The notes under the pieces: generated by a model | Databases searched by the model: none | The model's input: only the letters and a program-made list of their open reading frames with translations | Told to the model about the DNA's origin: nothing | Program-made: the position numbers and the translations under genes | Shown: positions 33,024-44,458 of the stretch, piece after piece | How positions within the stretch are numbered: position 1 is the first letter of the stretch | Layout: every line of letters starts with the position of its first letter | Assembly (NCBI RefSeq): GCF_014647375.1 | Contig: NZ_BMPB01000011.1 | Location: 186,001 to 250,000 of the forward strand | Reading direction: 5' to 3' | Length of the DNA: 64,000 nucleotides | DNA from: Parabacteroides faecis | GTDB lineage: Bacteria; Bacteroidota; Bacteroidia; Bacteroidales; Tannerellaceae

Positions 33024-34346
33024 ATGCAATTTACGAATAAACAAATCTGGCAGATTACCTATCCTGTACTTATCAGTTTGCTGATGGAACACATGATCGG
33101 GTTGACCGACACGGCTTATTTGGGTCGGGTAGGAGAGGTTGAATTAGGTGCATCGGCATTGGCCGGTGTGTATTACCTGGTTATTTATATGTTGGGGTTC
33201 GGCTTCAGTGTCGGAGCACAGGTTCTGATTGCCCGGCGTAACGGTGCTCACGATTATACACGGATCGGTCCGGTCTTCATGCAAGGGACACTTTTTCTGT
33301 TGTTACTTGCGGCGGTTTTATTTACCGCATCTCATTTGTATTCTCCGTTGATCCTTCGGAAACTGATTGGTTCGGACGATGTATATCGGGCTACCATGAG
33401 TTATGTCGACTGGCGTGTGTATGGCTTTTTCTTCTCTTTTATTGCCGTCATGTTCAGGGCGTTTTATGTGGGTATTACCAAGACAAAGATATTGACTGCC
33501 AACTCAGTCGTGATGGTATTGACCAATGTTGTCCTGAATTATATCCTGATATTTGGTAAGTTCGGTTTTCCTGCATTGGGAATTGCCGGTGCGGCGATTG
33601 CTTCCTCTATTTCAGAGGCGGTGTCGGTCCTGTTCTTTATTATTTATACCTGGAAGAAGATCGATTATAAGAAATATGCGATGTTCAGTTTTGTGGGGAT
33701 CGATTTCAGGATGCTCAAACAAATATTGAATGTGTCTGTCTGGATTATGGTACAGCATGGCATTGCATTCGTGGGGTGGTTTATCTTCTTTGTGGTGATG
33801 GAGCATCAGGGAGAACGTCCGTTGGCTGTTACGAATGTGGTGAGGAGTATTTCTTCTTTTCTTTTTATGTTTGTGAATGCGTTTGCTTCCACATCCAGCT
33901 CTTTGGTCAGTAACCTGATCGGTTCCGGTAAATCGGATCAGGTTCTGGGATTATGCGGACGTATGATACGGCTTTGTTATTTCTTCGTGCTGCCGTTAGC
34001 TATATTGATCGCCTTGTTCCCGGATTTGGTTTTGCGCATCTATACGGATAATCCGGACCTGATACAGAGTTCGACTCCTTCTCTTTGGGTGATGCTTTCT
34101 TCTTATATATTGGCCGTTCCTGCTTTTATCTACTTTTTTAGTGTGTCGGGAACCGGGAATACACAGTCGGCACTGATGATAGATATGGCTAGTATCTTTG
34201 TGTATGTGGCTTATACATTTCTGGTCGGTATCTGGTTGCATGCCGATGTCGCTGTTTGCTGGACAACCGAACATGTTTATAACGGGATGTTGCTGATTTC
34301 GTTCTTTTATCTCTGGAAGGGAAATTGGAGGAACAAAAGGCTATAA
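33024..34346 (+). CDS. MATE-family efflux transporter
   Basis: A 440-residue membrane protein with about 12 hydrophobic segments and the two-fold repeat of the MATE family. The first half contains LMEHMIGLTDTAYLGRVGE and VGAQVLIARRNGA, the second half MFVNAFASTSSSLVSNLIGSG. These exporters use a sodium or proton gradient to expel cationic drugs or metabolites from the cytoplasm. It has its own promoter with a palindromic site beside it. Substrate not deducible. Confidence 0.92.
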   Translation: MQFTNKQIWQITYPVLISLLMEHMIGLTDTAYLGRVGEVELGASALAGVYYLVIYMLGFGFSVGAQVLIARRNGAHDYTRIGPVFMQGTLFLLLLAAVLFTASHLYSPLILRKLIGSDDVYRATMSYVDWRVYGFFFSFIAVMFRAFYVGITKTKILTANSVVMVLTNVVLNYILIFGKFGFPALGIAGAAIASSISEAVSVLFFIIYTWKKIDYKKYAMFSFVGIDFRMLKQILNVSVWIMVQHGIAFVGWFIFFVVMEHQGERPLAVTNVVRSISSFLFMFVNAFASTSSSLVSNLIGSGKSDQVLGLCGRMIRLCYFFVLPLAILIALFPDLVLRIYTDNPDLIQSSTPSLWVMLSSYILAVPAFIYFFSVSGTGNTQSALMIDMASIFVYVAYTFLVGIWLHADVAVCWTTEHVYNGMLLISFFYLWKGNWRNKRL

Positions 34347-34670
34347 GTTTATCCTGAACAAAACATATATGTTTTGTAATTAAAAGTCCCTTATTTTGAA
34401 ATCAAAAGTCCTTTATTTAAAACTCAAAAGTCAGGTCTTAACATTTCAAAGGATAGATATTTTATCCAAAGCCTACTGATAGATGGTCCGGTGCTTATCC
34501 AACTAACTTTAACATCCCCCTTGTTCCCCTCTCCGGGCATGGAAAAGTTATTCTTGCATTATAAAAGAAAGGCTCATCTCTTTATAATGTAAGCTATTTG
34601 CGGATATAACCGGAATTTCCTATTGCCATATTTTTTCGCATTTTCATATTTGTTGTTTAAAGGTATCCTC
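34347..34670 (+). other. Gap between the MATE gene and the invertible element
   Basis: About 320 bases with no gene. It holds a perfect 20-base palindrome at 34358-34377, possibly ending the MATE transcript, then three spaced copies of AAAAGTC (about 34384-34435) separated by similar T-rich stretches. Confidence 0.5.
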
Positions 34671-34688
34671 AGTTCTAGTGGAACTATG
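34671..34688 (+). repeat. Left inverted repeat of the putative invertible promoter
   Basis: AGTTCTAGTGGAACTATG. Exact inverted partner at 34919-34936. It contains the partly palindromic core AGTTC-N5-GAACT, the motif I recall from the inverted repeats flanking invertible polysaccharide promoters of Bacteroides fragilis. Confidence 0.85.
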
Positions 34689-34716
34689 TTAATTTAATCC
34701 GGATTGTTAATTGTTA

Positions 34717-34746
34717 CAAATATCCGTATTAAATAAAAATCACAAG
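34717..34746 (-). promoter_or_regulatory. Candidate promoter inside the invertible element
   Basis: On the minus strand, CTTG (34746-34743) and, after 18 bases, GATATTTG (34724-34717) resemble TTTG/TAnnTTTG with one mismatch in each box. It faces out through the left repeat; inversion would place it facing susC at the right end. I found no comparable match on the plus strand. Confidence 0.4.
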
Positions 34747-34918
34747 TTACAAAAATGATATTTAATATAATAAAACTGGCACTATCCTTAATTATGTTCC
34801 AAAAATTATCCTGAAAACAATTACTTGATCAACTGAATCTTTATGTGTTAATGATGTGTAAAATGATTAATGCGTTGAAATACAATGAATAGTCTCTTCC
34901 TGTGTTTGTGCTATTAAC

Positions 34919-34936
34919 CATAGTTCCACTAGAACT
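34919..34936 (-). repeat. Right inverted repeat of the putative invertible promoter
   Basis: CATAGTTCCACTAGAACT, the exact reverse complement of 34671-34688. Confidence 0.85.
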
Positions 34937-35040
34937 AAGAGTCAGTAACATTAATATAATTGCTTATGAAGACATAAAATGAACCTATTTAATTGTATCA
35001 ATAATTAACATATTTAATTGTTAAACTTAATATCAATATA

Positions 35041-38000
35041 ATGAATAAATCTATATACAGTAATATAAAAGGAAAAGCTGTATCCCTAACTATTCTATGT
35101 GCTTTTAGCTATACAACATCTTTCGCATCGGTTAATATAGGAGTAGATAGGGGCAAATCGGCTTCAAGTGGGATAATACCGAATCAAAGTCAGACAACCT
35201 TTAATTTAAAAGGAAAAGTAATAGATGATATGGGAGAGCCTCTTCCCGGTGCAAATATAGTTCTTGTAGGTGGTACGAGAGGTGTTGCCACAGATATCGA
35301 CGGATCGTTTGTGATCAGTGTTTCGATTGGTGAAAAACTAACTGTTTCTTATTTGGGTATGGAAGATCAGATTATAACGGTCAAGGATAAGAAAGATCTT
35401 ATAATCACGATGAGACCTAAAACAGATGAACTGGAGGAAGTGACCGTTGTCGCTTTTGCCAAACAAAAGAAAGAAAGTGTTATCGGATCTATTACTACTT
35501 TGAATCCATCGGAACTAAAAGTTCCTTCCAGTAACCTGACTACAGCAATGGCCGGTCGTTTGGCCGGTGTGATTGCCTATCAACGAAGTGGTGAACCGGG
35601 AAAAGATAATGCCGAGTTCTTTATTCGTGGTGTGACTACTTTCGGTTATAAAAAAGATCCTCTTATTCTTATTGATAATAATGAAGTTACCACAACGGAA
35701 TTATCCCGTATTCAACCGGACGATATTGCCTCTTTCTCTATTATGAAGGATGCCACAGCAACTGCCCTTTACGGTTCTCGTGGTGCGAATGGCGTTATCT
35801 TGGTTACAACGAAAGAAGGAGCGGAAGGGGCTGCACAGGTCAGTGTCCGATTGGAAGGTTCTATGTCACAGCCAACGAAAATGGTGGAATTAGCCGATCC
35901 GATAACTTATATGCGCCTTCATAATGAAGCCGTATTGACACGTAACCCGATGGGAGCACTACCTTATTCGCAACAGAAGATAGATAATACGATTGCCGGT
36001 GTGAATCCGTACGCTTATCCGGCTACGGACTGGTATAACGAACTGTTCAAGAAAAATACGTTCAACTACCGTGCCAACTTTAACGTAAGTGGTGGTGGTA
36101 AAGTAGCTCGCTATTACATTGCCGGTAGTTATATTTCGGATAAGGGTGTATTGAATGTCGATAAAAAGAGTAGTTTCAATAATAATATCAACCTGAAACG
36201 ATATATGCTTCGTGCCAATGTAAATATCAATGTTACTAAAACAACAGAAGCAGTCGTTCGTTTGAGTGGCGCATTTGATGACTATACCGGACCGATAGAT
36301 GGTGGCGATCAACTGTTCGCTAAAGTTATGCGTACTAACCCCGTTTTATTCGCTCCTTCTTATCCGGCAGATAAAGCCAATCAATATACCAAACATATAT
36401 TATTCGGTAATGCAGATAAGGGACAGTACAACAACCCATACGCGGATATGCTGAAAGGATATAAAGATACGCAGACATCTCAGATGGCAGCTCAGTTCGA
36501 AGTGAAGCAGAATCTGGATTTTATCACGGAAGGGCTGTCTCTTCGTGCTATGTTTAATACGAACCGATATGGCTATTTTGATGTCTCTCGTCAATATATA
36601 CCATTCTTTTATAGGATAGGCTCATATAATAAGTTGGAAGATACCTATATTTTAGCACCTCTTAACGAACAGGATGGGCGGGAAACATTAGACTTTGTTC
36701 CCGGTAATAAAGTTGTTAGTTCTACAACTTATTTTGAAACAGCAGCTAACTGGAGTCAAACTTATAATGAAAAGCATGCTGTCGGTGCTATGTTGGTTTT
36801 CACACTTCGTCAATCCCTGACTTCCGACGCCAATACATTACAACTTTCATTACCTTCACGCAATGTGAACTTTGCCGGTCGTGCTACTTATGCTTATGAT
36901 TCGCGTTACTTCCTTGAAGCAAACTTTGGTTATAACGGTTCCGAACGTTTTGCAAAAAAAGAACGTTTTGGTTTCTTCCCTTCAATGGGACTTGGTTGGC
37001 TTGTTTCCAGTGAAGCGTTCTGGAATGACGATCTGAAGAAAACGATTAATAAATTGAAACTGAAAGTTACTCACGGATTATCCGGTAACGATGCGATTGG
37101 TAGACCTGAAGACCGCTTTTTCTATATCTCGGAAGTAAATATGAATAGCGATGGTAAGCAATCGTCGTTCGGTACCTACGGGAATTTTGGAGGACGTACG
37201 TTGAATGGTGTTTCGATTTCTCGTTATCCGAACGAAGATATAACCTGGGAGACTGCCCGGAAAACAAACATGGGTGTAGAGTTAGGATTGTTTGATAAGT
37301 TAGAATTGCAAGCAGATTATTTTATGGAATCTCGTTGGAATATTCTAATGTCACGTGCTTCTATTCCTACTACTATGGGACTTCAGGCCGATGTAATGGC
37401 TAATGTGGGAAAAGCTAAAAGTAGTGGTATCGATCTGTCGTTGAACTATAACCACATGATCAATAATGATGCCTGGTTGACGGGGATGGCCAATTTCACT
37501 TATGCGACCAGTGAGTTTACAGCCTATGAAGAACCGGATTACAGCGATACCCCCTGGAAATCTAAACTGGGGACTTCCCTAAATCAGAATTTCGGTTATG
37601 TAGCTGAACGTTTGTTTGCAGATGAAGAAGATATCCGCAATTCGCCGACTCAGTTTGGTAATTATATGGCCGGTGATATCAAATATAAAGATATCAATAA
37701 CGATGGTAAGATTACCGAATTGGATATGGTACCGATGGGATATCCGACCAGTCCGGAAATTGTGTATGGTTTCGGTCTATCCGGAGGATATAAACAATGG
37801 GATTTGTCTTTCTTCTTTCAGGGATTGGCTCGTGAATCATTCTGGATCGACACATCAACGGATAACGGAACTCTACCTTTCCTCAACGGACAGAATGCTT
37901 TGTTAAAAGCGTATGCAGATGATCACTGGTCTGAAGATAATCGTAATCTGTATGCTTTGTGGCCACGTTTATCTTATGAAGCTGTAGAGAATAATCAGAA

Positions 38001-38241
38001 ACCGTCTACCTGGTTTATGCGCAATGGTTCGTTCTTGCGTTTGAAATCATTGGAGTTTGGATATACTGTTCCGACCAATGTGGTTAAAAAAGCCTTTGTA
38101 AAGAACCTTCGTATCTATTTCAGTGGTACGAATCTGCTAACATTCAGTCCTTTCAAATTGTGGGATCCTGAAATGGGTGGAAATGGTTTGGGCTATCCGG
38201 TTCAGCGTGTATTCAATTTGGGAGCTCAGATTTCCTTCTAA
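35041..38241 (+). CDS. SusC/RagA-family TonB-dependent outer-membrane transporter
   Basis: 1066 residues. The N-terminus has a signal sequence, then a carboxypeptidase-D-like regulatory domain (KGKVIDDMGEPLPGANIVL, DIDGSFVIS), a TonB box region (ELEEVTVVAF), a plug domain with SIMKDATATALYGSRGANGVI, and a C-terminal beta barrel ending LGAQISF with a terminal Phe. There is no STN domain, so it is unlikely to signal through a FecR/sigma pair. With the SusD downstream it imports an oligosaccharide or other large ligand. It is the first gene of a four-gene operon preceded by a putative invertible promoter, so its expression may be phase-variable. Confidence 0.95.
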   Translation: MNKSIYSNIKGKAVSLTILCAFSYTTSFASVNIGVDRGKSASSGIIPNQSQTTFNLKGKVIDDMGEPLPGANIVLVGGTRGVATDIDGSFVISVSIGEKLTVSYLGMEDQIITVKDKKDLIITMRPKTDELEEVTVVAFAKQKKESVIGSITTLNPSELKVPSSNLTTAMAGRLAGVIAYQRSGEPGKDNAEFFIRGVTTFGYKKDPLILIDNNEVTTTELSRIQPDDIASFSIMKDATATALYGSRGANGVILVTTKEGAEGAAQVSVRLEGSMSQPTKMVELADPITYMRLHNEAVLTRNPMGALPYSQQKIDNTIAGVNPYAYPATDWYNELFKKNTFNYRANFNVSGGGKVARYYIAGSYISDKGVLNVDKKSSFNNNINLKRYMLRANVNINVTKTTEAVVRLSGAFDDYTGPIDGGDQLFAKVMRTNPVLFAPSYPADKANQYTKHILFGNADKGQYNNPYADMLKGYKDTQTSQMAAQFEVKQNLDFITEGLSLRAMFNTNRYGYFDVSRQYIPFFYRIGSYNKLEDTYILAPLNEQDGRETLDFVPGNKVVSSTTYFETAANWSQTYNEKHAVGAMLVFTLRQSLTSDANTLQLSLPSRNVNFAGRATYAYDSRYFLEANFGYNGSERFAKKERFGFFPSMGLGWLVSSEAFWNDDLKKTINKLKLKVTHGLSGNDAIGRPEDRFFYISEVNMNSDGKQSSFGTYGNFGGRTLNGVSISRYPNEDITWETARKTNMGVELGLFDKLELQADYFMESRWNILMSRASIPTTMGLQADVMANVGKAKSSGIDLSLNYNHMINNDAWLTGMANFTYATSEFTAYEEPDYSDTPWKSKLGTSLNQNFGYVAERLFADEEDIRNSPTQFGNYMAGDIKYKDINNDGKITELDMVPMGYPTSPEIVYGFGLSGGYKQWDLSFFFQGLARESFWIDTSTDNGTLPFLNGQNALLKAYADDHWSEDNRNLYALWPRLSYEAVENNQKPSTWFMRNGSFLRLKSLEFGYTVPTNVVKKAFVKNLRIYFSGTNLLTFSPFKLWDPEMGGNGLGYPVQRVFNLGAQISF

Positions 38242-38298
38242 TGAGAGTAATAACGAGTTTTGTCTTATTTGATTCTATTAATCAATAAATTAGTTTAC

Positions 38299-40236
38299 AT
38301 GAAAGCATTTTATAAAATATTAATGTTTACAGCATTACTACAGGTATTAACCTCGTGTGACGGTTATCTGGATTTAGTTCCGGATAACGTAGCAACGGTT
38401 GAGTCGGCTTTTACGAATCGAGCTGCTGCTGAAAAGTTTTTATATACTTGTTACAGTTATCGTCCGCAGTGGGGGGATTTATTTAATGATCCGGCTATTA
38501 ACGGGGGAGACGAGACATGGCAGTTTTATCCGATAGCATCACATGTATTTCCTACTTTTACAGCTTCTTATTTGCAACGTGGTTTTCAAAAACTAGATGA
38601 TCCTTATCTGAATTTTTGGGATGGTCTGCAAGGTGGTAAAGGGTTATTCATTGGTATCCGTGATTGCAATATCTTCCTGGAGAACATAGCTAGTACGGTT
38701 GATTTGGAAGAATCTGAACGTATTCGTTGGATTGCTGAAGTGAAATTCCTAAAGGCATATTATCATTATTATCTGTTGAAATGTTATGGTCCTATACCTA
38801 TTATAAATGAAAACCTTCCGGTTTCTGCTTCACCTGAACAGGTTGCGGTTTATCGTGATAAAGTGGATGATGTGGTGACTTATGTAAATGATCTGATTTT
38901 AGAAGCATTGCCAGATTTGCCGGATTATAAAGACATGGTTATGAGTCTTGAGGCAGGTCGTGTAGACAAACAGATCGCTTTGGCTGTTCGTGCAGAGATG
39001 TTAGTTATGGCAGCCAGTCCTTTGTTTAATGGCAATACGGAAATGGCGGGACTGATAGATAATCGCGGAACAGTTTTATTTAATCAGACTTATGATCCTG
39101 AAAAATGGAAAATTGCAGCAGAAGCTTGTAAAGAAGCGATAGAATCCTGTCATAGTGTCGGTAAGAAACTTTATACGGAAATTGAACCGATCACATTGAC
39201 TCAAGATCCTGTATTTCAAATACAAACCATGTTGCGTCAGGTCGTTTGTGAACGTTGGAACTGTGAGTTGATATGGGGAGGTACAAACAGTCAATGTAAT
39301 GATCGTTCCAATCATGCGACCCCTCGTGTTTTACGTGTTAATTCAGAAGTAATCAATACTATTAGTGCTCAATGGGCTCCGACAATTAAAACAGTAGAAA
39401 GTTTTTATACATCCAATGGGGTTCCTATGAACGAAGATAAGGAATGGAATAAAGAATCTTGGTATGCAAAGCGGTATGAGTTACGTCCCGAACCTTCTTC
39501 CGGAGATGAGAAATATTTAGTCAAAGAAGGGCAGCGCACTTGTTATATGCATTACAACCGTGAACCTCGTTTTTATGCCAGTATAGGTTTTGACCAGGGA
39601 ATCTATTACGGAAACGGAAAAACTGAGTTCGAGTCATGCAATTATACCAACTTTTTGAATTTGGGCTGGTCCGGTTATCAAGGAGGTAGTTCCTATTCCA
39701 TAACCGGTTACGCTCCTAAGAAAATGGCCAGTTATAAAAACGGTATTACTGCCAATAATATTTCATCTCCAGAATTTTATCCTTTTCCTGTTATCCGTTT
39801 GGCCGATCTTTATTTGCTCTATGCGGAAGCTTTGAATGAATATTCCGGTCCTTCGACAGAAGTATACGAATACATAGACCGGGTTCGTGAACGTGCCGGA
39901 TTGGAAGGTGTAGTAGAGTCATGGAGTAAATATTCTACCGATCCGTCTAAACCAACAACGAAAGATGGTTTGCGTAGTATCATTCACGGTGAAAGAACGA
40001 TTGAGTTTGCGTTTGAATCCAAACGTTACTGGGATGTACGTCGTTGGAAAGAGATCGACACTTACAATACTCAACCTCAGGGATGGAATATTATGGGTGA
40101 GACACCTGAAGACTTTTATAAATTGCAGAATGTGGCCGAGGTTCCTGTAAAAGTAACGGTGAAAGATTATTTTATGCCTATCCGGGAGACGAATATTATT
40201 ACTAATAAGAATCTTATACAAAATTACGGATGGTAA
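38299..40236 (+). CDS. SusD/RagB-family ligand-binding lipoprotein
   Basis: 645 residues from the ATG at 38299, which gives the lipoprotein signal MKAFYKILMFTALLQVLTSC. The family features are present: CDGYLDLVPDN after the signal, an alpha-helical N-terminal region with FLKAYYHYYLLKCYGPIPI, and the C-terminal YIDRVRERAGL and FAFESKRYWDVRRWKEI. It forms the lid of the SusC transporter on the cell surface and binds the substrate. It follows susC by 57 bases. Confidence 0.95.
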   Translation: MKAFYKILMFTALLQVLTSCDGYLDLVPDNVATVESAFTNRAAAEKFLYTCYSYRPQWGDLFNDPAINGGDETWQFYPIASHVFPTFTASYLQRGFQKLDDPYLNFWDGLQGGKGLFIGIRDCNIFLENIASTVDLEESERIRWIAEVKFLKAYYHYYLLKCYGPIPIINENLPVSASPEQVAVYRDKVDDVVTYVNDLILEALPDLPDYKDMVMSLEAGRVDKQIALAVRAEMLVMAASPLFNGNTEMAGLIDNRGTVLFNQTYDPEKWKIAAEACKEAIESCHSVGKKLYTEIEPITLTQDPVFQIQTMLRQVVCERWNCELIWGGTNSQCNDRSNHATPRVLRVNSEVINTISAQWAPTIKTVESFYTSNGVPMNEDKEWNKESWYAKRYELRPEPSSGDEKYLVKEGQRTCYMHYNREPRFYASIGFDQGIYYGNGKTEFESCNYTNFLNLGWSGYQGGSSYSITGYAPKKMASYKNGITANNISSPEFYPFPVIRLADLYLLYAEALNEYSGPSTEVYEYIDRVRERAGLEGVVESWSKYSTDPSKPTTKDGLRSIIHGERTIEFAFESKRYWDVRRWKEIDTYNTQPQGWNIMGETPEDFYKLQNVAEVPVKVTVKDYFMPIRETNIITNKNLIQNYGW

Positions 40237-40266
40237 TGAATTTTATATCTAATACATTATAATAAG

Positions 40267-41463
40267 ATGAATATGAAAAATAAGATTATACTGTCTGTTA
40301 TGACACTGGGTTTGATCACCTGGTCATGCAGTGAGTCACCTGTTGGACAACAACCTCTAGATTCTATAGCTCCTGGAGCTGTATCGAATGTGAGTGTGAA
40401 AAATATTCCCGGAGGGGCTATTCTTAGTTATACTTTGCCGGATGATGAAGATTTACTTTATGTAAAAGCACTTTATGATTTGAAAGAAGGTGTCGCTGAG
40501 GCTAAAAGTTCTCTTTATAATGATACGATTAAGGTAGTAGGTTTTGGCGATACCGAACCACGTGAAGTCTCACTTATAGCAGTGGATCGGAGTCGTAATG
40601 AATCTGTCCCTGTGAAAGTAACAGTGAACCCCGAAGAACCTCCTGTGTTAACAATCGGTAAAACACTTGATTTAGTGCAAGACTTTGGTGGTGTACAAGG
40701 ACAATGGACAAATACAAATCGGGATGAAGTCACTGTTCATATAGTACGTAAAGATGAATACGGAGATTATCAACCTTTGGAAACATTCTATACGACGGTT
40801 GTAGAAGGTAGTGGAGCTGCTCGTGGGTTGGATACAATTCCAATGAATTTTGGAATCTATGTAAAAGATCGCTGGGGAAATGTCAGTCCGACTCTTTATA
40901 AAGAGTTGACACCTATGTTCGAAACCTCATTTGATAAGACTAAATGGTCCGATGCTAAATTACCGAACGATATTGGTGAAGGAGTAGGTTGGGGAATGTC
41001 TCGTATATGGGATGGTATTTATGGTCCAGGTGATAATGGCTTTAGTTCGCCAGGTGGAACAGGGGTTTGGCCTCAATCGATTACTATTGATTTAGGAGCG
41101 GTAGGTAAGATCAGTCGTTTATTACTCTATCAACGTGGAGATGCCTATATTTTTTCTGAAGGAAACCTAAAACAGTTTGAAGTTTATGGTACTACAGATC
41201 TAGATCCTACGGGTAATTGGGATAGTTGGACCTTATTGGGTACTTTCGAATCTGTAAAGCCTTCAGGTCTTCCTTTAGGTCAGCATAGTTCGGAAGATGA
41301 TGATGTTGCCCTTACATCTGGAGAGAATTTCATTATGCCGTTGGATGTCCCACCTGTTCGTTGGATTCGTATCAAGGTTACCAGAACTTGGGCTGGTGGT
41401 GATAACTTCCAGATTGGAGAATTGTTTGTGTTTGGAGACAACAGATCCGAATTATATCAATAA
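40267..41463 (+). CDS. Surface lipoprotein, DUF4959/DUF5126/DUF5000-type
   Basis: 398 residues with lipobox TWSC (Cys21). The N-terminal region (PGAVSNVSVKNIPGGAIL) is a fibronectin-III-like DUF4959 domain, the middle a second beta domain (DUF5126-like), and the C-terminal part a discoidin-like domain with WPQSITIDLGAVGKISRLLL and WIRIKVTRTW. This architecture is found right after SusD in many Bacteroidales loci and is thought to bind glycan at the surface. It lies 30 bases after susD in the same operon. Confidence 0.85.
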   Translation: MNMKNKIILSVMTLGLITWSCSESPVGQQPLDSIAPGAVSNVSVKNIPGGAILSYTLPDDEDLLYVKALYDLKEGVAEAKSSLYNDTIKVVGFGDTEPREVSLIAVDRSRNESVPVKVTVNPEEPPVLTIGKTLDLVQDFGGVQGQWTNTNRDEVTVHIVRKDEYGDYQPLETFYTTVVEGSGAARGLDTIPMNFGIYVKDRWGNVSPTLYKELTPMFETSFDKTKWSDAKLPNDIGEGVGWGMSRIWDGIYGPGDNGFSSPGGTGVWPQSITIDLGAVGKISRLLLYQRGDAYIFSEGNLKQFEVYGTTDLDPTGNWDSWTLLGTFESVKPSGLPLGQHSSEDDDVALTSGENFIMPLDVPPVRWIRIKVTRTWAGGDNFQIGELFVFGDNRSELYQ

Positions 41464-41481
41464 TTATAAAAAGAATAGTTT

Positions 41482-42639
41482 ATGAAATTCAATAAAATAT
41501 ATTTTGTATTACTGATGCTGTTGGTGGTTGCCAGCCAGTCGTGTTCGGATATGAATGAGCTTACTGACAAGTATCTTGACGAAGGGGAGATTACTTATGC
41601 AGCGAAAGTAGATAGCGTGGGTGTCCGGGCTGGTGAGAACCGGATTCAATTAGATGTTTATGTAAAAGCTCAACGTGTAGAAAATTTGCGCGTTTATTGG
41701 AATAATTATGAAGATTCTGTCGATGTGGAGATCGGAGGAAAGACTGGTGTTTTTCCTATTATGCTCGATGGTATGCCAGAAAGTGGATATCTGTTCCAGT
41801 TAGTCAGCTTTGATAAGTTTGGTAATCGTTCGTTAGAGTTTGAAGCTACCGGATCGTCTTATGGAGAGAGCTATAAGAACAGTCTTTCTAATCGAACTTA
41901 TACTACCGAATTTACCCATTATGATGTGGAAGGCGATTCGATGGTGATCTATTGGGGAGGAACAGTTAGAGGTGCGGTTGGCATGGAGTTACAATATACT
42001 GATACTTCCGACAAAACGGTTCGCATGGAAGTTCCGGCTGATGCTACTACGACAACTCTGTATAACTTGAAGGGAAATATAAGTTACAACTCACGCTTCT
42101 TACCAGAGGAGAATGCTATAGATACTTTTATTTCTACTTCTAAAAGTATACCGGTTTATTATGAACGTCCGATAGACAAATCGAATTGGAAGATTGTCGG
42201 TTTCAGCTCAGCTTCAGCTTCCCCTGAATGGCCGGCAACGAATGCCATCGATGGTGATATTAATACTCCTTGGCATACGGAGCATAACCCTACGGCTCCT
42301 TTCCCTCATTATTTTATTGTAGATATGGGAGAAGTGGTTGATATATCGAGTTTTGAAGTATATCGCCGTATGGATGATTCAGGTGGTGCTCAACCGACTC
42401 ATCAGATATTCTATGCTGAATCGTTGGCTGATCCGACAGATGCAGATGATGCAGGCTGGATGAATTATGGCATTTACAATTTGGATAATGTAGTCGATAT
42501 CCCTCAATTTTCAAGGACGGCTAATGTTGTTAAAGCACGCTATTTCATGTATTATGTCGCTTCGAACTCTCGTTCATCGTATGCTTATATTGGTGAAATA
42601 GGGGCTTATTCTCCGGCAGGTGATGGCTTGATTCATTAG
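41482..42639 (+). CDS. Surface lipoprotein, DUF4998 plus discoidin (F5/8 type C) domain
   Basis: 385 residues with lipobox SQSC (Cys21). The N-terminal DUF4998-like part includes CSDMNELTDKYLDEGEITYA and a VGVRAGENRIQLDV strand. The C-terminal half is a discoidin/F5-8C domain with ATNAIDGDINTPWHTEH, the usual calcium/carbohydrate-binding loop, and YFIVDMGEVVDIS. It is the last gene of the SusC/SusD operon and ends at a strong hairpin. It probably helps bind ligand outside the cell. No glycoside hydrolase is encoded in this operon. Confidence 0.87.
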   Translation: MKFNKIYFVLLMLLVVASQSCSDMNELTDKYLDEGEITYAAKVDSVGVRAGENRIQLDVYVKAQRVENLRVYWNNYEDSVDVEIGGKTGVFPIMLDGMPESGYLFQLVSFDKFGNRSLEFEATGSSYGESYKNSLSNRTYTTEFTHYDVEGDSMVIYWGGTVRGAVGMELQYTDTSDKTVRMEVPADATTTTLYNLKGNISYNSRFLPEENAIDTFISTSKSIPVYYERPIDKSNWKIVGFSSASASPEWPATNAIDGDINTPWHTEHNPTAPFPHYFIVDMGEVVDISSFEVYRRMDDSGGAQPTHQIFYAESLADPTDADDAGWMNYGIYNLDNVVDIPQFSRTANVVKARYFMYYVASNSRSSYAYIGEIGAYSPAGDGLIH

Positions 42640-42664
42640 GTATTTATTACCCTTTTCATTTGCT

Positions 42665-42710
42665 AATCCGGTGTCAATAGTAATACTTTAATCACTATTA
42701 GCACCGGATT
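42665..42710 (+). terminator. Hairpin ending the first SusC/SusD operon
   Basis: A 17-base stem (42665-42681 with 42694-42710), only two central mismatches, 12-base loop. It starts 26 bases after the last stop codon. The following T tract is short and mixed, so it is either an intrinsic terminator or a 3'-end-stabilising hairpin. Confidence 0.7.
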
Positions 42711-42797
42711 TGTTTATAATAACCGGTTTGCAGAATATATGAGATATTCTTTGATTAAAGAAATATGTGATATGAACTATAAACTTAGTTTAACCTT

Positions 42798-43169
42798 ATG
42801 GATAATATATTGAAAAACAAATTACGTGAACGGGTATTGTGGTTTTGGGGATTCTTCGGTTCCAAAAGAGACAAGGTGGCATATATAAGTACAGAAGAAT
42901 GGCCTTATATAGAGCGTTGGACAAACTATATTTTTGATGATTTTCTTGTGCGACTAAGTAAGCATTATCCAAATCTTTCTCATAATGATTTGAGAATATG
43001 TTGTTTAATAAAACTAAAAGTAGATCGTTTGCATATTGCTTCATTAATGGGAATATCGCCATCCTCTGTATCTACCTGCAAGTTTAGGATTAAGAAAAAA
43101 ATTGATGCAGGGAATGTTAATAAAATACTTAATCACATGTCTTTGGAGTCATATTTATTGACTTTTTAG
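42798..43169 (+). CDS. Small helix-turn-helix protein
   Basis: 123 residues. The C-terminal half (LSHNDLRICCLIKLKVDRLHI, then SLMGISPSSVSTCKFRIKKK, quoted in parts) is a LuxR-like DNA-binding domain of the kind found at the end of large TPR-type Bacteroidetes regulators; here the sensory part is absent and only about 60 residues precede it. It could be a stand-alone regulator or a remnant of a larger one. It lies between the first SusC/SusD operon and the AT-rich island and may control either. Confidence 0.6.
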   Translation: MDNILKNKLRERVLWFWGFFGSKRDKVAYISTEEWPYIERWTNYIFDDFLVRLSKHYPNLSHNDLRICCLIKLKVDRLHIASLMGISPSSVSTCKFRIKKKIDAGNVNKILNHMSLESYLLTF

Positions 43170-43513
43170 TTGATAGCGTTATAAAAAGATAAGGATATGT
43201 TATAGATGGAAATAGTAAATCTAATTCTTTCAGTATTATTGTTTGCTAATATATTGGTCTATTAGATATTTATTCTTCATTGTCTATGTTTTTCTTTTTT
43301 GTTGTATGACTAATAAATTGATTAATAGTGTTCTATGGTGTAATGATGTGATGACTTTGTCTATCGATGAAATGTTATAATTAGATTTTTTTATTGTTTA
43401 TTTGTAATGAAAAAAATGGTGATTTGATGTGTGTTGATTTTTGAAAATAAATTTACTTTAAATGAATGATGTTTATAGAGTATTCTTATTGTTTTAATTT
43501 TAATTGATTCAAA
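43170..43513 (+). other. AT-rich gene-free stretch
   Basis: About 340 bases of very AT-rich DNA with long T and A runs. I see no gene, strong hairpin or promoter match. It marks the edge of the AT-rich island that extends to 49.8 kb. Confidence 0.4.
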
Positions 43514-44458
43514 ATGAAAAAAAACTATTTATTATTAAGTGCTGTTTTATTACTATTTTCTTGTAGTAATGCTATTTTGCCAGATGAGGAATCGGCTGTC
43601 TCTGATTTATTAGCCCAGCCAAAGACTTGGCAGAAACAGTTAGAATATGCCCAAAAGAACAATGATCTAAAAACAAAAACAAGTTTTCAGGGGATTAGTT
43701 TTCAGGGGTATACGTACAAGGGTAAAATTGATAGAGAAGTCGATATTCCTGTAATAATTGAAGAATTACTTTCAGATAATTCGGCAATTGTTCAGTATAC
43801 AGATTTAAATTTTTCAAATTTTGAGATTATTCCGATAGGGATGGTAAGGCAATCTGTGAAAACATTAAGTAGCGAAGATCCATTTTCATATCTCAAATCC
43901 CAACTACAAACTTCTATTATGATAGGAATGGAATTATTAGAGTTAGAATGGACTTACAAGGGAGATACTTTTTATTCCACAGCAATAGTCTCGAATGAAC
44001 ATGGTGGTCTTATTTATGATAATATAGGAATTTATATTATTGAAAAAAGCTCTAAATTAGAGCAAAAAGATAAAGAGATAGAATTGAATGTACCATTTGT
44101 TAAAACGAAATCTGAATCTGAAGGTCCTGTAGTACGGCAGTTTAGCCAGTCAGATTCGGGACGTAATTATTATGGTCAGACGGTTTTTTCATATAGCATT
44201 AGCTGTAATTCATATTTTAATGCAGGGGTCTTATATGATCGAAAATTAAGATCAAGTCATGATTCTGCTTTTGGATGGTCCTGTAGTGCTGATGTAAGAA
44301 CAATTAGTGGTCAGATCAATATTTCAACATATCATGAATTTGCTTGGGCATATGCTTATGGTGCAGCTTGTTCAGTATCGATTGGATGGAATGGAAATGG
44401 TTTTAAGATATCTGGAGGAGGGACTGGGTCAACTGGAACGACAGTTCACAGACAATAA
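43514..44458 (+). CDS. Hypothetical lipoprotein
   Basis: 314 residues with a lipoprotein signal MKKNYLLLSAVLLLFSC (Cys17). The middle is mixed alpha/beta. The C-terminal 110 residues are rich in Ser, Gly, Tyr and Trp with regularly spaced Cys (YSISCNSYFNAG, WSCSADVRT, GAACSVSIGW) and end in a glycine-rich GGGTGSTGTT tail, like a beta-sandwich adhesin or toxin tip. I do not recognise a family. It is the first gene of the AT-rich island and is followed by small Cys-rich and membrane proteins in the same direction. Confidence 0.7.
   Translation: MKKNYLLLSAVLLLFSCSNAILPDEESAVSDLLAQPKTWQKQLEYAQKNNDLKTKTSFQGISFQGYTYKGKIDREVDIPVIIEELLSDNSAIVQYTDLNFSNFEIIPIGMVRQSVKTLSSEDPFSYLKSQLQTSIMIGMELLELEWTYKGDTFYSTAIVSNEHGGLIYDNIGIYIIEKSSKLEQKDKEIELNVPFVKTKSESEGPVVRQFSQSDSGRNYYGQTVFSYSISCNSYFNAGVLYDRKLRSSHDSAFGWSCSADVRTISGQINISTYHEFAWAYAYGAACSVSIGWNGNGFKISGGGTGSTGTTVHRQ

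Follow-up and report, generated by a model that had tools for sequence, protein, structure and literature searches.

A short intergenic segment before a SusC/SusD operon of Parabacteroides faecis raises the question of whether it is a promoter that inverts and, if so, which enzyme turns it. The window, that is the whole stretch of 64,000 nucleotides that was analysed, corresponds to positions 186001-250000 of contig C11 in a genome of 6.66 Mb and 33 contigs (G000). The segment is bounded by a left inverted repeat at 34668-34688 on the plus strand, with the core AGTTCTAGTGGAACT at 34671-34685, and by a right inverted repeat at 34919-34939 on the minus strand, with the core AGTTCCACTAGAACT at 34922-34936, the reverse complement of the left core. 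The perfect 18-bp repeats described in the first-pass annotation (34671-34688 and 34919-34936) were confirmed and can be extended to 21 nt, where 20 of 21 bases agree (95%), and the AGTTC-N5-GAACT core that it placed in each repeat is present at 34671 and 34922. The putative invertible segment, at 34689-34918 (no strand), comprises 230 bases and is gene-free as had been proposed: no open reading frame of at least 90 aa is listed there and no ATG-started one of at least 21 aa lies wholly within. The right 18-bp arm ends 104 bases before the susC start at 35041, close to the 100 bases first estimated. This pair, with three overlapping matches, is the single place in the window where a 16-mer recurs in inverted sense within 400 bases, compared with a mean of 0.07 matches in 30 shuffles, and it is far above chance. 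The locus has the arrangement of a Bacteroidales invertible promoter (inverton), in which two inverted repeats enclose a short stretch between genes, ahead of an operon.

The operon beside the segment comprises four genes on the plus strand, separated by gaps of 18-30 bases. The first is susC (35041-38241), encoding a SusC/RagA family TonB-linked outer membrane protein of 1066 aa (TIGR04056, 991 bits with a cut-off of 368; Pfam Plug and CarbopepD_reg_2); the closest SusC relatives that carry names belong to Bacteroidales, which, like the promoter type, agrees with a genome of this order. It is followed by a susD-like lipoprotein of 658 aa (38260-40236; PF07980 and PF14322) and by two probable surface glycan-binding proteins whose function is read from their domains, one of 398 aa at 40267-41463 (DUF4959-DUF5126-DUF5000) and the other of 385 aa at 41482-42639 (DUF4998 and an F5/8 type C domain). 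The domain scan is consistent with the earlier statement that this operon has no sigma or anti-sigma genes, yet seven sister loci, described below, precede sigma genes. Upstream of the repeats a MatE transporter gene (33024-34346) reads in the same direction. A chain of about 22-base units occupies 34358-34432, with the ACAAAACATATATGTTTTGT palindrome and then AAAAGTC at 34382, 34404 and 34426; similar stretches gave 10 further matches at 8 places in G000 and were matched in other species of the genus too, forming a dispersed intergenic repeat to which no name is given. A search for counterparts of the window region in 59 other genomes gave only short matches, nearly all to this neighbouring dispersed repeat, and one match of 52 bases lies within the segment (G051, 79%, E 5e-4). 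A plasmid search gave no match.

The reading that we favour, with a probability of about 0.85, is that the stretch 34668-34939 acts as a SusC/SusD-class invertible promoter, flipped by a trans-acting tyrosine recombinase and controlling the susC operon. A tyrosine site-specific recombinase would bind the AGTTC-N5-GAACT dyad in each repeat, and recombination of the two copies would flip the 230-base segment. In one orientation the promoter inside would read into susC, susD and the genes of the two probable glycan-binding proteins (35041-42639), and in the other it would read away from susC. The enzyme would be the 387-aa recombinase encoded at C3:454683-455843, acting in trans and serving about 34 switches. 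We infer that this segment flips, that the C3 recombinase flips it and that susC expression follows.

The repeat of the window belongs to a large family in its genome. AGTTC-N5-GAACT is present at 66 exact sites genome-wide, compared with one when the pattern is reversed as a control. A partner search around every one of these sites, which demanded an equal spacer and a distance of at most 2.5 kb, identified 34 inverted pairs; the two cores are exact in 22 of them, and in the other 12 one core is imperfect. In this count the doubtful, chance-like pair L191 was dropped and L180, with two possible pairs, was counted once. Nine of the 66 exact sites, L191 among them, are left with no accepted partner. 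At L180 (G000 C10:84064-84259) the right repeat is doubled, with two direct copies 34 bases apart. Since the partner search itself required equal spacers, the fair count is the one made on neighbouring exact sites at most 2.5 kb apart (n = 24): 22 form inverted pairs whose spacers are equal, one is a direct copy and one a mismatch; an equal spacer would be expected in about 2% of cases for two independent arms. The 28 distinct spacers among the 34, with 26.0 expected by chance (p 0.25), were rejected as proof that an address code exists; this diversity is at chance level and leaves only the agreement within pairs to be counted. The distance between cores ranges from 126 to 1637 bases and is below 300 in 25 of the 34.

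The genes downstream of the 34 loci were read by hand from open reading frames and profile labels. SusC genes follow 19 of them, the window included as well as L195, which lies between two divergent SusC genes; seven precede sigma-led sets, one is found between more distant SusC genes and the last seven precede other genes. In all, 26 of the 34 switches precede SusC genes or sigma genes of SusC sets. The sigma-led loci (L172, L174, L181, L190, L192, L200 and L207) stand before three-gene sets ending in SusC, whose first gene matches the Pfam families of sigma-70 region 2 and region 4 in seven of seven; from size and order, the first genes can be read as ECF sigma factors and the second ones as anti-sigma factors. 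Three first genes were scanned among the seven loci before other genes, being one outer membrane efflux protein and two with no family.

Recombination of this motif is observed within the genus. Genomes G016 and G017 have 99.1-99.2% identity over 12 kb on the two sides of a 566-base segment, reaching 100% in the 300 bases that adjoin it on each side, and the segment itself, bounded by AGTTCATACAGAACT and the inverse of it, matches at 100% only when reverse-complemented. Collinearity ends 17 bases into the repeat from both sides. Inversion of the same repeat motif in related genomes is one of the features expected of an inverton. Since the motif flips between G016 and G017, the segment in the window, too, is very probably a promoter that inverts. 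The proposal of such a promoter before the SusC/SusD operon is in this way sustained by evidence on its class, namely the 34 like pairs and the inversion between G016 and G017.

Between G012 and G033 one homologous segment (73% over 290 bases) is inverted, but its right flank is unlike (47.6%). A segment of 10-14 kb between AGTTCTGGAAGAACT sites (L352 in G012, L351 in G033) presents a mostly inverted alignment with collinear flanks, although similar SusC copies inside it yield direct alignments too. Another pair shared by these genomes (ATAAA spacer) has the same orientation in both species. In the homologous switches L349 (G012) and L350 (G033) the spacers are TAACA and TAATC, different between species and equal within each pair. 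In G060, two of 11 exact sites lie at most 20 bases from a contig start and contig C35 terminates exactly in a degenerate site, a pattern to be expected when an assembly has to deal with both orientations.

A possible promoter inside the segment was assessed against the sister loci. An exact TAnnTTTG box, reading outward and located 12-20 bases inside one repeat, was identified in 21 of the 34 loci and never inside both repeats; the window locus has no such box at that distance. A weight matrix built from the exact boxes of these 21 loci gave its best matches in the window on the minus strand, reading away from susC: CATTTTTG at 34750-34757, a second -7-like candidate (10.2), and GATATTTG at 34717-34724 (9.6). 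The score stays below 8.6 in 95% of shuffled segments and ranges from 2.7 to 21.3 in true boxes, each left out of training. The minus-strand promoter candidate at 34717-34746 is the one that had been pointed out in the first reading, and its boxes are indeed present: the -7-like GATATTTG and a -33-like CTTG at 34743-34746, one base off the TTTG consensus. Its distance is unusual, 31 bases from the left core by our own count, compared with 12-20 in the sister loci (n = 21). After flipping, the CATTTTTG and GATATTTG boxes would end, as computed, 150 and 183 bases before the susC start.

The assembled orientation is probably OFF. The original OFF call finds modest support in the minus-strand boxes, which score above the shuffle limit, and is weakened by their unusual spacing to the repeat; OFF is preferred because the best matrix matches lie on the minus strand, above the limit that holds 95% of shuffles. 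As a possible ON state, a plus-strand promoter was weighed too (TGTGTTTG, located at the right repeat with 13 bases between it and the core), but it was dropped, being absent from the best matrix scores. By hand count, 16 of the 21 boxed loci have SusC or sigma genes on one side only, with 12 boxes reading away from the gene and four towards it. Pieces of the segments of L184 and L185, of 28 and 41 bases, have matches in L187 only when the direction is reversed with respect to their SusC genes.

As for the enzyme, SusC/SusD invertible regions and shufflons of Bacteroides fragilis are reportedly controlled by Tsr0667, in work attributed to Nakayama-Imaohji in 2009, and the consensus of Tsr0667 is said to be AGTYYYN4GDACT, a form that was not found in print. 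This consensus is fitted in the outward direction by 61 of the 68 arms, both window arms included, in the inward direction by 49, and neither way by five. The tyrosine recombinase family is matched 23 times in G000 (one match below cut-off) and the serine family four times. The best candidate is the 387-aa tyrosine recombinase at C3:454683-455843, with arm-binding, SAM-like and catalytic domains. Three other genomes have 45-54 motif sites (G019, G022 and G024), and in these the protein is conserved at 89-93%. Relatives, called at E 1e-60 or better, were identified in 25 of the 38 other genomes of the genus (45-93% identity, some partial), or 26 of 39 with its own genome.

The regions of 17 of these 26 recombinases were examined, all at 59% identity or more. 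SusC-like genes adjoin the recombinase in the 17 regions, a housekeeping neighbour read as rarA from sequence is found in 15 and one read as serC in 13. A site fitting AGTYYYN4GDACT is present in 14 of the 17, whereas none was found in 201 kb of 20 other G000 stretches, 19 of them around recombinases, and the chance expectation on window composition is 0.38 per 64 kb. The linkage between recombinase and motif is thus an observed one, but its 14 regions are not independent, since the site AGTCTTTGCAGAACT is common to seven by homology. At AGTCTTTGCAGAACT the SusC genes continue in frame in G013 and G021 and switch abruptly to a different sequence in G014, G019, G022 and G024, in the manner of a shufflon. 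This site lies in or just before the SusC genes beside the candidate, at 343628 and 344451 in G021 (L334) and likewise in L331-L333, L335 and L336, and the sequence upstream of it changes abruptly between species. In G000 the own site beside the C3 recombinase is not visible because the contig ends inside the adjoining SusC gene. Presence of the candidate and excess of the motif were not significantly associated, 10 of the 26 genomes with it and 2 of the 13 lacking it being enriched (p 0.27); G004 and G061, in 490 and 340 contigs, have excess motif sites and no relative at the threshold used. Being encoded on another contig, the C3 recombinase would most likely act on the window switch in trans.

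For the remaining tyrosine recombinases of the genome, linkage or conservation was the sole ground for setting them aside. Five genes (C11:177356, C3:184823, C1:630948, C7:71973 and C23:12992) were rejected as each has its own different repeat. They are invertases of about 305-330 aa, each adjoining a CTTATTT...AAATAAG repeat pair (G000 C11:177839-178256, C3:184333-184750, C1:631475-631918, C7:71480-71897 and C23:13529-13941), and differ from the window system in this repeat, in the 380-390 bases or so between its arms and in its position next to the gene. L123 (C12:150434) was discarded, being at the end of putative prophage genes and with only 41% identity in the enriched G022; in this stretch, G000 C12:144000-151747, the last gene encodes a 438-aa tyrosine integrase. 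L128 (C2:234159), with best matches of 47% in G022 and 39% in G024, and L116, which adjoins another 22-nt repeat, were also rejected. The integrases L118-L122, L124 and L125, the cluster L113-L115 and the short L126 were left out of the candidate comparison.

The class of the enzyme is where the first-pass annotation was at its weakest, having assigned the core to capsule promoters and the inversion to serine recombinases. According to PMC4747536, the serine recombinase Mpi inverts 13 regions of B. fragilis, including seven capsule promoters, and Tsr0667, among three master invertases, acts on three SusC/SusD clusters and nine other regions. These assignments and the fit of the arms to the Tsr0667 consensus run against both attributions, and the motif is linked here to a tyrosine recombinase. 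Downstream of the window switch there is a SusC/SusD operon and not a capsule operon. Targets and linkage fit, by analogy, the SusC/SusD class that the tyrosine recombinase Tsr0667 inverts in B. fragilis. That Mpi itself works the window switch is very unlikely, even though an Mpi-family serine recombinase is encoded in the genome at C13:214213-214815 (NF009949, 323 bits with a cut-off of 272): PMC4747536 assigns the capsule promoters of B. fragilis to Mpi and its SusC/SusD regions to the tyrosine enzyme. None of the 34 loci stands before a capsule operon by the labels used, seven of them being only partly classified. Serine invertases exchange around a 2-base centre whereas the dyad has an odd one (N5), and the Mpi repeat differs from the AGTTC-N5-GAACT repeat.

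Three further explanations concern the segment itself. The two dyads could be operators of a regulator with nothing inverting, each arm being itself a dyad; this is extremely improbable in view of the clean inversion between such dyads in G016 and G017 and of the equal spacers in 22 of 24 neighbouring exact pairs. A frozen remnant, with repeats kept but no longer recombining, would accord with the weakness of the promoter boxes and their unusual distance, and the 59 other genomes offer no counterpart of the segment for comparison. However, drift would erode the repeats, and in the window both cores are exact and 20 of the 21 arm bases agree; this locus is not among the 12 of 34 with one imperfect core, and a remnant is unlikely. 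Finally, the segment could invert with no control over susC if a separate promoter for the gene lay downstream of the right repeat and ahead of the susC start, where sigma-70-like matches occur on the plus strand at 34951 and 35005. Such matches number 31 in 34300-43600 compared with 33.4 in shuffles, and with the sister-promoter matrix nothing scores in the interval from the repeat to susC (best -1.6); a separate susC promoter is an unlikely explanation.

An invertible promoter of the SusC/SusD class, the preferred reading, resembles the Tsr0667 regions of B. fragilis in its SusC/SusD targets, in the many scattered regions, in the tyrosine recombinase and in a motif that fits the Tsr0667 consensus; as in the Tsr0667 shufflons, the candidate gene adjoins SusC genes with signs of shufflon exchange. 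The differences are another genome and genus, seven loci that precede sigma genes, and 34 pairs here compared with the 12 regions given in PMC4747536. The Mpi capsule promoters of B. fragilis are similar in their small invertible promoter segments and in one enzyme for many loci, and an Mpi-family protein is encoded here, but they have a serine enzyme and capsule genes downstream (PMC4747536). In the invertons of the hCom2 community (PMC11892184), invertases are tied to repeat groups by proximity, a Bacteroidota promoter motif lies inside and surface products are encoded nearby; linking by proximity and the promoter motif are already established ideas, and the invertons were identified there from reads, in passages that do not deal with G000. 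Orientation at or near SusC/SusD genes was among the most different between disease and control cohorts in PMC10939037.

The window switch is very probably a real SusC/SusD-class invertible promoter, of a type that B. fragilis is already known to have. What is less common is how large the family is within a single genome and that it extends to sigma genes; a literature search, which is weak evidence of absence, gave among the papers listed none devoted to a large switch family together with sigma genes. It is about an even chance that one chromosomal tyrosine recombinase, with the same neighbours kept in most of the genus, runs a genome-wide lottery of about 34 switches, acting on SusC genes directly (19) or through a sigma gene (7), with a random subset of glycan importers in each cell and the five-base spacer keeping partners together. 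If this is true, the spacer shared within each pair would allow dozens of sites to be inverted by one enzyme while leaving the chromosome largely in order. If the window segment flips, this glycan importer would be present in some cells of the strain and absent from others, with possible consequences for the use of nutrients and for how phages or a host recognize the cells. At the level of the class, the value lies in a motif together with the candidate enzyme linked to it and, within a single genome, some 34 target loci, sigma genes included, and whether one enzyme sets much of the SusC repertoire is a directly testable question.
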